A stretch of 32,406 bases of DNA from Lachnospiraceae bacterium (GTDB taxonomy: Bacteria; Bacillota; Clostridia; Lachnospirales; Lachnospiraceae), in NCBI GenBank assembly GCA_017635395.1, contig JAGBLN010000027.1, positions 1 through 32,406 of the forward strand, read 5' to 3'. Shown one piece after another: positions 2,277 through 31,609 of this stretch (positions within the stretch are counted from its first letter, which is position 1; each line of letters opens with the position of its first letter). The notes beneath the pieces are model-generated. The model saw only the letters and a list, made by a program, of their open reading frames with translations, made no database searches and was not told where the DNA came from. The translations under genes were made by a program, and so were the position numbers.

Positions 2277-3288
2277 AAAACTTTATACTGCCATACCGGT
2301 TCTGTCTTCATTATTCATCCTGGCATCCTGTACGGCCTCTGATATAGAACTGCCCTATGGCAGCATGGAAAACGACCAGAGCTTTACATTGAATCCCGTG
2401 GATGAATATGACACGCTCCCACTTTTTGCTGAAGACATAGCTGCTGTTTCTGATAATCTCATAACTGCTTCGCTTTCAGAAGAAGATGCGGTCTTTTCTG
2501 CTGCTGTCTACAATGAGGATGATGCTGAAGTTCTGTATTCCCTGAATGCTACCGAAAGGACATCGCCGGCATCCCTGACAAAGCTTATGACAGCGCTGAT
2601 CATTTTCGAAAAGTTTGGCGACAGGCTGGATGATTCAGTCACTATCGGCGAAGTATCCATAAAGGAAGAGGGGGTACAGCGGTTCGGTCTGAAAGCCGGA
2701 GACAAGCTGACCATAAGGCAGCATCTGGAGATAACCCTGATTCAGTCAGGAAATGACGCGGCACTTGCACTTGCACAGTATGCCGGAGACAGCACTGCCG
2801 GAAGCAGGCTTGAGGAAGATGGTGAGATCACCGGTGAAGAACGCTTTGTACAGATGATGAATGAAAAGGCGGCCAGCTTAGGATGTACGGGTACCCACTA
2901 TGTGAATCCCCACGGCCTTGACGCCGCTGAGCACTATTCTACAGCCTATGACCAGTACCTGATATTCAGGCAGCTTCTTGCATATCCTGAATTTCTGGAG
3001 ATAATCAATACGCCGTCGGTCCAGATAAGCTATAATACGGCTGACGGAACCGTAAAAACAAAGACAATAATGAATACTGACATGTTTGTTAACGGTGGAA
3101 AGGATGTGCCGGAAGGCGTTACCGTAATAGGCGGAAAGACGGGCAGTACAGCCACGGCTGGAAAGTGCCTGATACTCCTGGCAAATGACATGTCCGGCAG
3201 GTCGTACATAGCAGTTGTAATGGGCGCAAAAGATGAGGGAACACTTTATAATACACTGTCTGAGCTATTGAAAATAGCAGACTCTTAG
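2257..3288 (+). CDS. D-alanyl-D-alanine carboxypeptidase (S11 family), predicted lipoprotein
   Basis: This is a low-molecular-weight PBP that trims the terminal D-Ala from peptidoglycan stem peptides outside the cell. It has 343 residues. The active-site motifs are SLTK (residues 106-109), SGN (164-166) and KTG (294-296). The N-terminus has a basic stretch (KCIKNKK), a hydrophobic core, and then LASC with Cys25, which is a lipobox. It is therefore predicted to be anchored by lipid, whereas DacA/DacF enzymes usually use a C-terminal amphipathic helix. A 55-residue linker with many Asp, Glu and Ser follows the Cys. The start overlaps the end of mgsA by 20 nt, so expression is probably coupled. 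A promoter for the next operon lies inside the 3' end of this gene. Confidence 0.92.
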   Translation: MKCIKNKKLYTAIPVLSSLFILASCTASDIELPYGSMENDQSFTLNPVDEYDTLPLFAEDIAAVSDNLITASLSEEDAVFSAAVYNEDDAEVLYSLNATERTSPASLTKLMTALIIFEKFGDRLDDSVTIGEVSIKEEGVQRFGLKAGDKLTIRQHLEITLIQSGNDAALALAQYAGDSTAGSRLEEDGEITGEERFVQMMNEKAASLGCTGTHYVNPHGLDAAEHYSTAYDQYLIFRQLLAYPEFLEIINTPSVQISYNTADGTVKTKTIMNTDMFVNGGKDVPEGVTVIGGKTGSTATAGKCLILLANDMSGRSYIAVVMGAKDEGTLYNTLSELLKIADS

Positions 3289-3761: not shown

Positions 3762-5219
3762 ATGAGACGCGGCCAGAGGTCAAAAAAAGTCAGAGCTGCG
3801 AAAAAAACGGACCGGCAGGATAAAACTAAAGTTTCCGAAAAAGCAGCTTTAAAAAAGAGTATAAGATTTTACGGAGGAGGATTTCTTGTTATCATCATTG
3901 CAATCTTCCTCTTTTATTTAATTGTACTTTTTACCCAGATAGTCGACAAGAAGAACATCACTTCATATATGGTCAGGAACGGTTCCCTGGCAATCAACAA
4001 CACTTACAGAGCGCTTATTCTCAGGGGCGAAAAAAATTACACGGCGCCAGTTTCCGGAACCCTTATATGCTTTTCCGGAGAAGGCGAGCATGTAGGCATT
4101 GGATCGCCGGTATATGCAGTGGATGAACGCGGGACCCTTATCGGTGCAACAGGAGAACTAAGCACCGAGCTGTCGAAGGAAGACCAGAGCAGGCTGAAAA
4201 TGGAGATAGGCGATTTTGCGGGACAGTTTAAGCCGGAGGATTTCCGTACGAATTACGATTTCCTGCATGATATAAGCTCCAGCATATTGTCGATATCCGC
4301 AGCGGGACTCAGGGCTCAAATCGAATCCGGAACTTCCGGCACGGCAGCAATAATGTATTCCGACCATAATGGCTATGTCGCTTTTTATACGGATGAATAT
4401 GACAGCGTTTCAGCAAATGACCTGACTCTTTCACTTCTGGAAGGAGCAGGATATCAGAAAAAACAGCTGATGACCGGGGATCTGGTTGACCAGGGGGATT
4501 TTGTATACAAACTCATTAATTCCGAAAACTGGAGCGTTGCCTTTTCGGCTGATGACGAGTATGCGTCGATGCTGTTAGGCCACGGTTATGTGCCTGTAAG
4601 GTTCAGGCGCAACAATGAGGTGCTGAACGGAAAAGTGTCTGTCATAGAAGTTGACGGTGACAAGGATATAGTGACCCTTGGTTTCAATAATTCCGTGCTG
4701 AATTTCTGCTCAGAAAGGTTTACGGACATTGAGATTGTCACCGACGGCATCACCGGGCTCAAAGTGCCTGCGTCTTCTGTTGCGACAAAGCAGTTCTTTA
4801 CTGTTCCTGTAGAATTTGCGGTAGGCGAATCAGAGGATGAGGAAAACGGCAGTTCAGACATAAAGACCTTTATGAAGCAGGTGTACCTGGAAAGCGGCGA
4901 GGCCACCGTCATGCCGTTAGATATAAATGTTTATTCTGAAAAGAACGATCTTTACTATGTGGATAATACCCAGCTTAAGTACGGCGACGTGCTTATCCGG
5001 GAGGATACCCAGCAAAAGTTTGTCGTGCAGGATACGGATTCGCTTTTAGGAGTCTATAATATCAACAAGGGATATGCGCAGTTCTGCCAGATTCATATTC
5101 TTGACCATAATGACGAGTATACCATCATAGCCCCGGATACCGTGTACGGCCTGAGGGAATACGATTATATAATACTTGATGCGGAATCCGTGGTGGATGA
5201 CGAATTTATATATGAATAA
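3762..5219 (+). CDS. HlyD-like membrane-anchored protein of the yggS-sepF cluster
   Basis: This 485-residue protein starts with a very basic cytoplasmic segment (about residues 1-32, rich in Lys and Arg). A single transmembrane helix follows (about 36-60: FYGGGFLVIIIAIFLFYLIVLF), then a long extracytoplasmic part. The segment YTAPVSGTLICFSGEGEHVGIGSPVYAV resembles the biotinyl-lipoyl-like barrel of HlyD/membrane-fusion proteins. No ABC transporter or outer-membrane partner lies nearby, so an efflux role is doubtful. Similar proteins are, from general knowledge, often found beside yggS and sepF in Clostridia. The ATG is 2 bp after the upstream stop with no clear ribosome binding site, suggesting translational coupling. 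Confidence 0.75.
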   Translation: MRRGQRSKKVRAAKKTDRQDKTKVSEKAALKKSIRFYGGGFLVIIIAIFLFYLIVLFTQIVDKKNITSYMVRNGSLAINNTYRALILRGEKNYTAPVSGTLICFSGEGEHVGIGSPVYAVDERGTLIGATGELSTELSKEDQSRLKMEIGDFAGQFKPEDFRTNYDFLHDISSSILSISAAGLRAQIESGTSGTAAIMYSDHNGYVAFYTDEYDSVSANDLTLSLLEGAGYQKKQLMTGDLVDQGDFVYKLINSENWSVAFSADDEYASMLLGHGYVPVRFRRNNEVLNGKVSVIEVDGDKDIVTLGFNNSVLNFCSERFTDIEIVTDGITGLKVPASSVATKQFFTVPVEFAVGESEDEENGSSDIKTFMKQVYLESGEATVMPLDINVYSEKNDLYYVDNTQLKYGDVLIREDTQQKFVVQDTDSLLGVYNINKGYAQFCQIHILDHNDEYTIIAPDTVYGLREYDYIILDAESVVDDEFIYE

Positions 5220-24269: not shown

Positions 24270-24335
24270 CTATATATAAAAATGTATTAACGATTTGCTT
24301 CGTTTCTGTCGAAACTCCCGCAATTCGAAACCACA

Positions 24336-24454
24336 TTCGCAATCCGCTGTGTAGCATGCTTTGCATGCGTCTCGCAGCTTGCTCATGCGGTTTGGGTTGC
24401 GAACGGAAAAAATTCGCTAATGCAAGCGTTGCTCATTTTTTTCGCTCGCAACCC
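24336..24454. repeat. GC-rich structured intergenic element between rpmA and obgE
   Basis: The 24261-24560 gap contains no gene but is unusually GC-rich for an intergenic stretch. GGGTTGCGA (24394-24402) can pair downstream with TCGCAACCC (24446-24454, 9 bp perfect). It can also pair upstream with TTCGCAATCC (24336-24345, 10 bp with one G-U). The two pairings exclude each other, as in an attenuator. GCATGC-TTT-GCATGC (24354-24368) and GTTTC-TGTC-GAAAC (24302-24315) form small hairpins. It shares the words GCTGCGAGACG and TTGCGAATG with the element at 29828-30044. Confidence 0.6.
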
Positions 24455-24461
24455 TTAATAT

Positions 24462-24511
24462 AACAAACAAAAGCCGCTACGATCTGCGCGCATGCACAAA
24501 CCGGGCGGCTT
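24462..24511 (-). terminator. Possible terminator after rpmA
   Basis: On the minus strand AAGCCGC (24511-24505) pairs with GCGGCTT (24477-24471) and is followed by TTTGTTTGTT. The loop is long (27 nt) and contains GC-rich self-complementary words. It may separate rpmA from obgE, or allow read-through. Confidence 0.45.
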
Positions 24512-28857: not shown

Positions 28858-29742
28858 CTAATTTCCTCTGTAAATATGAGTCTGGTTCTTGCCCGTCTGT
28901 TTGATGTAATACATTGCCATATCAAGCTTGCGGCTTAAGGTATCATAGTCCGTTCCGTGCTGCGGTGCCAGGGCTATGGCAATTGATGCAGTAAGCCTTG
29001 TATCTGATGATGACGCAATGTTCGCTTCCTGCATGGACACTTCCCTTATGTCGGTGCAGAGTCCCATCATTTCTATCTCGTTTAGGTTATATGGTATGAA
29101 AATAAGAAATCGGTCTTTTCCAAGGCGGCCTAGTATTGAGCCATTAGGAACTATCTTTTTTAAGCTGTCACAGAACCTGATGATGACACCGTCTGCATTG
29201 CTGCTATGTCCTGTAGCCATAGCCAGCCTGAAGTCGTCAAAATCCACCTGCATAAAAGTAGCGCCGTTATCTGCAATATGTTTTAGCTGAGAATTGATCT
29301 CGTTTTCAAGATAATCCGGTTTCCAGAGATCTGTCAAAAGATCCTTCTGTGCAGAGCTCAAGATATTCTTGCGCATATCCTCCATCTGAAGGACTTTTTC
29401 AATCCTTCCCAGCATGGCTTCAGCTTCAAAGGGCTTGGTGATATAGTCCACGGCACCCATCTTCATGCCGCGGATCTCGCTTTCACGTTCACCATCTGCG
29501 GTCAGAAAGATTATGGGGATATTGGCAGCCTTAGGATTAAGTTTGATCTGCTCCATGGTTTCATAGCCGTCCATATCCGGCATCATGATATCAAGCAGTA
29601 TCAGATCCGGGCGGTTCTTTTTAAGAAAATTCAGCGCCTGCTTGCCTGACTTTGCCATGGAAAGATGATAAAAAGGCTGCAGGACTTCGGCAGCGCTTTT
29701 CAGATTTGTGGTCACATCATCGACCATCAGGATATGTTTCAT
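28858..29742 (-). CDS. Response regulator with REC and degenerate GGDEF domain
   Basis: This 294-residue protein has a REC domain (1-120) with Asp8-Asp9, phosphoacceptor Asp51 (LLDIMMP) and Lys103. The C-terminal half (about 130-292) has the GGDEF fold (DLLTDLW, FMQVDFDDFRLAMATGH, YYIKQTGKNQTHIY), but the active-site signature reads GKDRF (208-212). It probably cannot make cyclic-di-GMP and may instead act as a receiver-driven binding protein. It resembles the GGDEF protein at 7098-9191 in organisation. The ribosome binding site is only moderate (GGGG). The gene lies upstream of the aminopeptidase gene and downstream of the structured element after thrC. Confidence 0.9.
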   Translation of the reverse strand: MKHILMVDDVTTNLKSAAEVLQPFYHLSMAKSGKQALNFLKKNRPDLILLDIMMPDMDGYETMEQIKLNPKAANIPIIFLTADGERESEIRGMKMGAVDYITKPFEAEAMLGRIEKVLQMEDMRKNILSSAQKDLLTDLWKPDYLENEINSQLKHIADNGATFMQVDFDDFRLAMATGHSSNADGVIIRFCDSLKKIVPNGSILGRLGKDRFLIFIPYNLNEIEMMGLCTDIREVSMQEANIASSSDTRLTASIAIALAPQHGTDYDTLSRKLDMAMYYIKQTGKNQTHIYRGN

Positions 29743-29827
29743 AAGTAACCCCGTTTAAATAATCCATCAACACCGTTATCTTTAGTATATGCTTGTATGG
29801 CTTAGTAGCCCTAATTATATTAGTGTA

Positions 29828-30044
29828 TTTGTCGGTTGCGAATGCCGCCTCGCATTTGCTTCCGAACAGTCCGATGCGGCCGAGGGAAAATCCGACGCTT
29901 ACAGCCCGTTATCATGCGACGCAGGGCTGCGAGACGGCGCTTTTTCGGCTCGCATGCGGCGGATGATTAAGGGCTGTTAGCGGCTAGTTTCCCGCGGTAA
30001 AGCATCGGTTCGGAAGCAAAGTGAGGGGCGTTCGCCCGCACAAA
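29828..30044. repeat. 217-nt nested long hairpin between thrC and a regulator gene
   Basis: The 29743-30079 gap contains a nearly full-length imperfect palindrome. Paired arms, outside to inside: 29828-29832/30040-30044, 29833-29835/30036-30038, 29838-29842/30031-30035, 29844-29846/30027-30029, and 29848-29851/30023-30026. Then come 29855-29867/30008-30020 (TTTGCTTCCGAAC, 13 bp perfect), 29872-29877/30002-30007, 29880-29889/29988-29997 (one mismatch) and 29896-29907/29971-29982 (one mismatch). The innermost arms are 29911-29915/29963-29967 and 29928-29933/29949-29954. All arms are nested in order. It is GC-rich compared with other gaps and encodes no convincing protein. It could be a structured RNA, a miniature inverted-repeat element or a folding unit at the end of thrC. 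Confidence 0.8.
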
Positions 30045-30079
30045 CATTTGGTAACAATAATCGCTATACGTAAATACGA

Positions 30080-31609
30080 TCAAACGCATAGGAACTCCTT
30101 CACCTGTGCAGGCATATCTTCCTTGTCGCAGACAATGTCGTGAAGAACGGCTGCGGAACGGATATCCTCGATAGCCTGAGGAATATTTGTGTTGGAAATC
30201 TCGCAGAGCTTGTCAATAAGCTTGAAATCGTCCTCGTTTGCGTTTGCGGAATCTATGGCTGTCATTACTGTCTTTGCAAACTTATAGGGGCTTGCTGTGG
30301 ATGCGATAACAGTTACGGTATCGTCACCGCTTGTTGCCTTATATTCATCATATACTGCACCAGCAACAGCAGTGTGAGTATCGATCACATAGCCTGTCTC
30401 GTCATACAGTGATTTTATCTTATCTGCTGTCTTCTTTTCATCCGCATAACCGCTTTCGAAACCTTCAAGCGCAGCTTTCATGCTGTCATCAATGGTATAT
30501 GCGCCCTTTGATGAAAGATCAGCCATAAGCGCTGCATTCTTCTTTGTATCTGCGCCTGCGACGAAATAAATAAGTCTCTCAAGGTTGCTGGAAATAAGAA
30601 TATCCATGGAAGGTGAACCGGTGAGCATGAACTTTCTTTCGTTTGTGAAAGCCTTGCTGGATTCCTCCATTTCGTGGTTCTTATCATATGTGCCGGTGCT
30701 GAAGAAATCATAAAGCACACGGTTGGTATTTGAAGCACAGATAAGCTTGTTTACAGGCACTCCCAAGTTCTTTGCATAATATGCAGCCAGGATATTACCG
30801 AAGTTTCCTGTAGGAACCGTGAAATTAATCTTGTCGCCTTTGGAAAGCTTGCCGTTCTTTAAAAGCTGAACATATGCATATACATAATAAACTACCTGGG
30901 GAACCAGACGTCCGATGTTGATTGAATTTGCTGATGAGAATACAAATCCTTTAGCCTTAAGCTCTTCAGCAAGCTTCTCATCGCCGAACATATTCTTTAC
31001 GCCGGTCTGGGCATCGTCAAAGTTACCGGTTATACCGATAACCCTTACATTCTGTCCCTTCTGGGTTACCATCTGCTTTTCCTGCACAGGTGAAACGCCG
31101 TTCTTAGGGTAAAATACCACAATACGGGTACCGGGCACATCAGCAAAACCTGCAAGGGCGGCCTTGCCAGTATCACCGCTTGTAGCCGTCAGGATGACTA
31201 TTTCTTCCTTAAGGTCATTCTTCTTGGCCGCAGTAGTCATAAGGTATGGCAGTATGGAAAGAGCCATATCCTTGAATGCAATGGTTGCACCATGGAAAAG
31301 CTCAAGGTAATATGCTCCGCCTGCAGATACAAGGGGCGCAATCTCCTCTGTGTCGAATTTGGAATCATAGGCATGCTCTATGCAGTACTTGAGTTCTGCC
31401 TCTGTGTAGTCAGTAAGGAAAAGCTTCATTACCTCATAGGCGGTCTGCTTATAATCCATCTTCTTAAGCTCATCAAAGCTTACATCAAGCTTCGGAAGTT
31501 CTTCCGGCACAAAGAGTCCGCCGTCATCCGCAAGCCCCTTTAAAACTGCCTGGGATGCAGTAAGCATTTTTTCATTATCCCTGGTACTGTGGTATAAAAT
31601 GTTTTTCAT
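30080..31609 (-). CDS. thrC: Threonine synthase
   Basis: ThrC converts O-phosphohomoserine to threonine with PLP, the last step of threonine synthesis. The 509 residues match the longer (E. coli/yeast-type) threonine synthase. The PLP lysine is Lys113 (FHGATIAFKDMALS). The phosphate-cradle block TATSGDTGKAALAGF follows. GAGG precedes the ATG. The leuS gene ends 21 bp upstream on the same strand, so the two may be co-transcribed. A structured element lies just after the stop. Confidence 0.96.
   Translation of the reverse strand: MKNILYHSTRDNEKMLTASQAVLKGLADDGGLFVPEELPKLDVSFDELKKMDYKQTAYEVMKLFLTDYTEAELKYCIEHAYDSKFDTEEIAPLVSAGGAYYLELFHGATIAFKDMALSILPYLMTTAAKKNDLKEEIVILTATSGDTGKAALAGFADVPGTRIVVFYPKNGVSPVQEKQMVTQKGQNVRVIGITGNFDDAQTGVKNMFGDEKLAEELKAKGFVFSSANSINIGRLVPQVVYYVYAYVQLLKNGKLSKGDKINFTVPTGNFGNILAAYYAKNLGVPVNKLICASNTNRVLYDFFSTGTYDKNHEMEESSKAFTNERKFMLTGSPSMDILISSNLERLIYFVAGADTKKNAALMADLSSKGAYTIDDSMKAALEGFESGYADEKKTADKIKSLYDETGYVIDTHTAVAGAVYDEYKATSGDDTVTVIASTASPYKFAKTVMTAIDSANANEDDFKLIDKLCEISNTNIPQAIEDIRSAAVLHDIVCDKEDMPAQVKEFLCV

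Follow-up and report, generated by a model that had tools for sequence, protein, structure and literature searches.

The hairpin beside thrC

What is the long hairpin that separates thrC from a REC-GGDEF-like gene in a 32,406-nt stretch of DNA (the window) from a Lachnospiraceae bacterium? The initial annotation had noticed a nested array of paired segments at 29828-30044 that seemed improbable by chance, and had offered three readings: a structured RNA, a long MITE-like palindrome or a 3′ regulatory element. The array is indeed where it was placed, between thrC at 30080-31609 and the gene of the REC-GGDEF protein at 28858-29742, both on the minus strand. When the two strands of 29815-30060 were folded and compared with dinucleotide shuffles, the plus strand gave a minimum free energy of −129.1 kcal/mol (shuffles −84.63, sd 4.8; z = −9.26) and the minus strand −113.2 kcal/mol (z = −7.97); on each strand none of 200 shuffles folded as well. 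A T tract is absent from the sequence on both sides of 29828-30044, so the structure is no simple intrinsic terminator, in line with the initial annotation.

The hairpin can be divided into parts, all given here on the plus strand. A conserved core (29859..30016) covers all 169 positions of a covariance model, R1, with 142.7 bits (E = 2.3e-32), a score obtained with a model built from 18 copies of which the window copy is one. The fold and the flank comparison place outer arms on either side of it, a 5′ arm at 29829..29858, which is not common to the copies with IS4-type ends described below, and a 3′ arm at 30017..30046. The core carries a conserved internal loop, AUCC/UAG, with the ATCC side at 29890..29893 and the TAG side at 29985..29987. 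A U-rich loop of about 6 nt that is seen in other copies is absent from the window copy; according to the alignments its site is 29870..29881.

A dispersed family in Lachnospiraceae

The further copies that the initial annotation had proposed to look for were found by blastn and by covariance model. With 29810-30060 as query, blastn returned 13 matches in the genome of origin (G000), 11 of them at other places and the remaining two being the hairpin and its reverse strand. Across 30 genomes, the own one included, the window hairpin was found by blastn in three. R1 gave 24 matches in the own genome, that is 13 places and 11 reverse-strand echoes, and detected the core in 10 of 35 genomes of the window's genus and in at least 21 of 397 genomes, or at least 20 of 334 genera, of the family (own included). 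A second model of 134 positions, R2, found shorter relatives of the core in at least 24 of 299 Lachnospiraceae genomes; over 391 genomes of the class it gave at least three positives, all Lachnospiraceae and one of them the own genome. The counts for family and class are lower bounds, since scans of this size score only a few candidates in each genome. In the two genomes that were scanned fully, both from one genus, 49 and 40 matches were listed. A strict pattern retrieved 36 stretches from the genome contigs, 35 MAG records and the isolate AB2028, all Lachnospiraceae. The palindrome family is known here only from this family of bacteria. Its core measures roughly 105-195 nt across copies and genera, and the copies with called neighbours are intergenic.

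A phage or plasmid vehicle was considered and rejected: the window hairpin and a copy from L188 had no blastn match in phage and plasmid collections, and the strict pattern had no match in viral contigs. Some copies carry further structure. At L036 and L038 (G003/G033) another long palindrome lies inside the element at the apical arm, and at L033 and L086 (G003/G033) one lies in the 5′ arm.

The thrC site in related genomes

In the close relatives G033 and G003 only 49-50 bp lie between the matched flanks of the thrC site, compared with 336 bp in the window. The gap is 24-57 bp in the more distant G002, G004, G041 and G045; in G030 it is 131 bp and includes an arm-like remnant. Insertion of the window copy is the simpler reading of these site comparisons, and loss in the relatives would be possible. 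A role as 3′ regulator of thrC was rejected: thrC and the regulator gene are present without the element in G033 and G003, and the gap is short in G002, G004, G041 and G045. Moreover, copies adjoin many different genes in mixed orientation, so that 3′ regulation of thrC is not supported. Among the three readings of the initial annotation, this one finds no support, and the MITE-like palindrome is supported by the dispersed copies, the 7-bp target duplications at some relatives and the missing element at the thrC site of close relatives. The signs of a structured RNA would also fit single-stranded DNA.

A conserved fold, apparently of one strand

None of the outcomes that the initial annotation had named as refuting came about: shuffled sequence does not fold as well, further copies exist, and the pairing is conserved. 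Among 39 copies, of which 36 are distinct, both partners have changed in 44 of 57 pairs, and 95.8% of the cells remain paired. The covariation score is 0.499 compared with 0.178 in shuffles (0 of 500 as high), and pairing falls to 31-45% when the partners are shifted by 1-3 columns; this alignment was fitted to the covariance model. In a MAFFT alignment of 20 distant copies from 13 genomes, found with R1 and with the structure derived from that same alignment, 30 of 38 pairs have double changes and 95.5% are paired; here one of four covariation-type measures, the number of further pair types, was weak (54, compared with 51.0 in shuffles and reached by 81 of 500). Kept pairs are favoured in both sets because structure models were used to find the copies. 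In the distant sequences the A, U, C and C of the loop AUCC/UAG are invariant in 20 of 20, as are U and G on the other side, where A is present in at least 90%. The window copy has this loop and lacks the U-rich one. The fold of one strand is kept across Lachnospiraceae copies while the sequence changes.

Which strand is kept may be read from the mismatches. G-U exceeds A-C by 125 to 11 overall and by 42 to 11 when pairs whose commonest type is G-U are left out (17 versus 9 pair positions). A count that is free of the fold, in which the left half was set against the reverse-complemented right half and isolated mismatches were scored, gave G-U:A-C ratios of 40:16 in 45 sequences of the window's genus (115 other mismatches) and 51:30 in 70 other sequences (174 other mismatches); per copy, G-U is more frequent in 50 and A-C in 22. 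The bias is moderate, and the counted copies are related to one another. One strand of the element looks selected, and the G-U excess would fit RNA or single-stranded DNA. Together, covariation, fixed loop and moderate one-strand bias likewise fit either molecule, as far as can be told from sequence. Replication strands were assigned by GC skew to 39 of the 40 G147 matches on 20 stretches, one partial match being dropped: 24 elements are lagging and 15 leading, with halves of 16:3 and 8:12. This is no consistent replication-strand bias in G147, and a lagging-strand mechanism with single-stranded DNA might show one.

Core constraint and apparent exchange between copies

Eight comparisons at the same locus, with 350-bp flanks that include coding DNA, allow the rate of change in the core to be set against its surroundings. 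In six of them the identity of the core is above that of both flanks (0.988, 0.982, 1.0, 0.971, 0.983 and 1.0); two of the six, L031/L039 and L039/L107, share one locus. L124/L062 has no change in 166 core positions while 8% of the left flank differs. The core is not slower in L043/L068 (0.959 versus flanks of 0.963 and 0.926) or in L041/L051 (0.775 versus 0.635, a flank that is hardly alignable, and 0.884). Five pairs between G147 and G438 have too few changes to judge, or their core has recombined.

Parts of the core apparently move between loci. The pairs L327/L303 and L317/L302 have matching outer arms but differ in the subtype of the apical half, and at L329 the right half of the L324 locus is joined to a different left half. 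The flanks of L301, L194, L319 and L320 are rearranged. These core swaps and rearranged flanks fit conversion and rearrangement between copies. It was also observed that the flanks of L301 and L320 (G438) and of L194 and L319 (G147) are combined differently between the two species, as after inversion through copies.

Of 66 scored copies, five have the right arm repeated past their 3′ end and none has such a repeat on the left side; this set excludes copies that have short flanks or no arm close to the core. These repeats suggested that the arms are copied from the target site, a reading that is not supported: at one such locus the matching place in G438 (L329) has the same right half and a single arm, so that the repeat arose later or was lost there.

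Transposon ends in the window's genus

Ends that resemble ACTTCCC and GGGAAGT are present on both sides in 15 of 47 copies of the genus, and seven more have one or a degraded end, as judged by eye. The string GTGGGAAGTTT occurs 30 times in G000, 65 times in G003 and 114 times in G033. At L112 in G033 a 1.6-kb element with such ends encodes a 471-residue transposase with DDE domains, which matches the NCBIfam model IS4_4 with 560 bits (cut-off 250); in G000 the last 123 residues of the transposase stand at a contig end and are 100% identical. By sequence and flank comparison, the window copy lacks the ends CTAAAACTTCCC / GGGAAGTTTTAG of this IS4-family element. Exact 7-bp target duplications were found at 6 of 19 end pairs, compared with 0 of 342 mismatched pairs, and duplications of at least 6 of 7 bp at 7 of 19 compared with 9 of 342; the 19 end pairs include some of other MITEs. 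Four of the exact duplications surround a core (L034, L036, L048, L101) and two do not (L113, L122). L113, L121 and L122 (G000, G030, G033) hold a different MITE, about 260 nt long, which has the same IS4-type ends around an unrelated inner palindrome; two of these three loci show exact 7-bp duplications.

The IS4 transposase was rejected as a general partner of the family. Among 299 genomes, 29 have a match below 1e-20 and 24 have the core, and these overlap in three (about 2.3 expected); with matches at E up to 0.001 (51 genomes) the overlap is four (about 4.1 expected). What the IS4-family element would explain is limited to the movement of some copies in a single genus; elsewhere the presence of the family is unrelated to the transposase.

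Arms and tails in other genera

For 37 copies in four genomes the arms were walked automatically. In 11 of them the walk gave arms of 22-68 bp in which no more than one base is unpaired; the remaining walks overran the ends or ran into mismatches, and no arm is present at L269. Fourteen of the 37 walks end exactly at GTCC, and 13 of these have CA before the 5′ arm; such tails are not seen in the sequence at the window copy. Cores are more alike than arms: the median likeness is 0.74 versus 0.25-0.3 in G147 and 0.77 versus 0.3 in G071, and L264 and L267 have cores that are 0.98 alike and arms that are 0.1 alike. In G276 and G343 the arms are still related (0.6; 0.78 and 0.6). Where the distance between two copies is below 600 bp, they diverge in 12 cases, point the same way in three and converge in none. 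A wider inverted pair was noted at L231 (G306:C22), where elements at 3121-3274 (minus) and 4390-4543 (plus), the sole two listed copies of that genome, lie about 1.1 kb apart around small ORFs. Just past the 3′ end of the element, a TTGACA-type promoter-like sequence was seen by eye in 5 of 11 copies of G071 (L283, L284, L287, L288 and L290).

Comparison with known elements

Integron attC sites are palindromes of variable sequence in which the folded single strand matters, with the R boxes RYYYAAC and GTTRRRY at their ends. The present elements are likewise variable palindromes whose folded single strand would matter, but the variable part is the outer arm and not the tip, and the end boxes were not seen when the ends were read by eye.

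A known RNA family was rejected, too: Rfam 15 had no match at gathering score over the element in the window, and at eight loci with copies, searched at E up to 1, the sole match above gathering was a tRNA that is not part of the element. Two matches that overlap an element scored 25 (gathering 64) and 23.3 (gathering 56.4). Elsewhere in the window a Clostridiales-1 RNA (RF01699) lies at 24283-24462 on the minus strand, with 85 bits and a gathering score of 48; it is the only Rfam family there.

Closest in kind are MITEs and CGTC-tagged REPs. Like MITEs of an IS4-family element, the present elements are short and non-autonomous, share inverted ends with a transposase gene found within the genus and show 7-bp target duplications at some copies. 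Unlike in MITEs, it is the inner fold and not the ends that is conserved, the window copy and the copies of other genera lack IS4 ends, and presence does not follow the transposase. CGTC-tagged REPs, as described in the available text of PMC3733652, are dispersed intergenic palindromes without a known transposase, with stems of 8-9 bp, loops of 4-5 nt, an unpaired CGTC and CCA-like tails; their oriented dimers are frequent and tandem pairs rare. Intergenic dispersal and oriented pairs are shared, and the GTCC- and CA-ending tails seen in other genera may be comparable to CGTC and CCA, orientation left aside. The Lachnospiraceae elements differ in having about 200-290 nt and internal loops, and the window fold extends over more than 200 nt and has internal loops in place of a stem of 8-9 bp and a loop of 4-5 nt. 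Because these defining features fail, the element is filed as neither. The available text of PMC3733652 makes no mention of Firmicutes, Clostridi or Lachnospir, and Lachnospir is likewise absent from the main text, as far as available, of PMC8040213, which deals with palindromic candidate RNAs. Among open PMC papers no title or abstract describes this palindrome family, which is weak evidence of absence.

Nature of the element

We favour, with reasonable but limited confidence, the reading that the window hairpin is one inserted member, altered in part, of a dispersed family of non-autonomous palindromes whose single-strand fold, be it RNA or single-stranded DNA, is under selection. Copies with IS4-type ends would be moved in trans by the IS4-family element, selection on the family as a whole would act on the fold of one strand, and the fixed loop or loops may be recognised by a putative protein that lets the elements spread or persist. 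Since it has neither IS4-type ends nor one of the conserved loops, the window copy is probably a relic, and one without particular importance to thrC. Several observations weigh against this reading: the chance-like overlap of transposase matches and cores in 299 genomes, by which no general partner protein was found; matching sites that could be losses where site comparison suggests movement; the moderate G-U bias among related copies; the weak measure in a distant set which, like the other, was found with structure models; the two comparisons, L043/L068 and L041/L051, without a slower core; and the inconsistent replication strands.

Bacterial dispersed palindromes are usually very short, as REPs, or defined by their ends, as MITEs. 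In the present family it is the inner fold that persists from genus to genus and the ends that vary, and this points to a step in which the folded single strand is recognised. With 40-49 matches per genome in the two fully scanned genomes, apparent recombination between copies and a distribution so far confined to Lachnospiraceae, the family provides a clear way to test for a new RNA- or single-stranded-DNA-binding partner in gut and rumen bacteria.

The same covariation with a fixed loop, the one-strand G-U bias and the core identity above both flanks in six of eight loci, as in L124/L062, would also be expected of genes for trans-acting structured RNAs that had multiplied through duplication and as passengers of transposon ends, with selection for the RNA rather than for mobility. 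We regard this as a tentative alternative and rather unlikely, since divergent pairs and a number of matches that reaches 40-49 in a genome are more typical of repeats, Rfam has no such family at gathering score, and the five G147/G438 pairs show no clear constraint.

It is tempting to go beyond the favoured reading and to speculate on a new class of mobile element, in which the conserved single-strand fold (RNA or single-stranded DNA) with fixed internal loops is the spreading unit, its own perfectly paired arms are gained at each insertion, cores are exchanged between loci, and a dedicated partner protein acts on elements that can borrow passing transposon ends, such as those of IS4 in the window's genus. 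As each insertion would acquire its own outer arms, the arms would be locus addresses. We consider this extension unlikely as it stands.

Neutral palindromic MITEs, whose arm complementarity is kept by template switching at hairpins and whose fold is not selected, would explain that copy-specific arms pair almost perfectly, that core parts are exchanged and flanks rearranged between copies, and that the U-rich loop of the window copy is missing on one side. Template switching should remove the internal loops as well, yet these are fixed across genera; it predicts no strand bias, yet G-U exceeds A-C; and the core is slower than the flanks in six of eight comparisons. This origin is quite improbable.

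That the element acts on 3′ ends of neighbouring genes, as insulator or on transcript end or stability and with its own 3′ end toward that of the gene, is very improbable. In its favour, the gene on the 3′ side is turned toward the element in 27 of the 33 copies that could be assigned (37 examined, four genomes) and in 28 of 46 in the window's genus (47 examined, same-locus copies included), and divergent pairs fit convergent genes. Against it, the better-folding strand is antisense to the facing gene, the window copy has no T tract, other contexts occur, and genes were called as simple ORFs.
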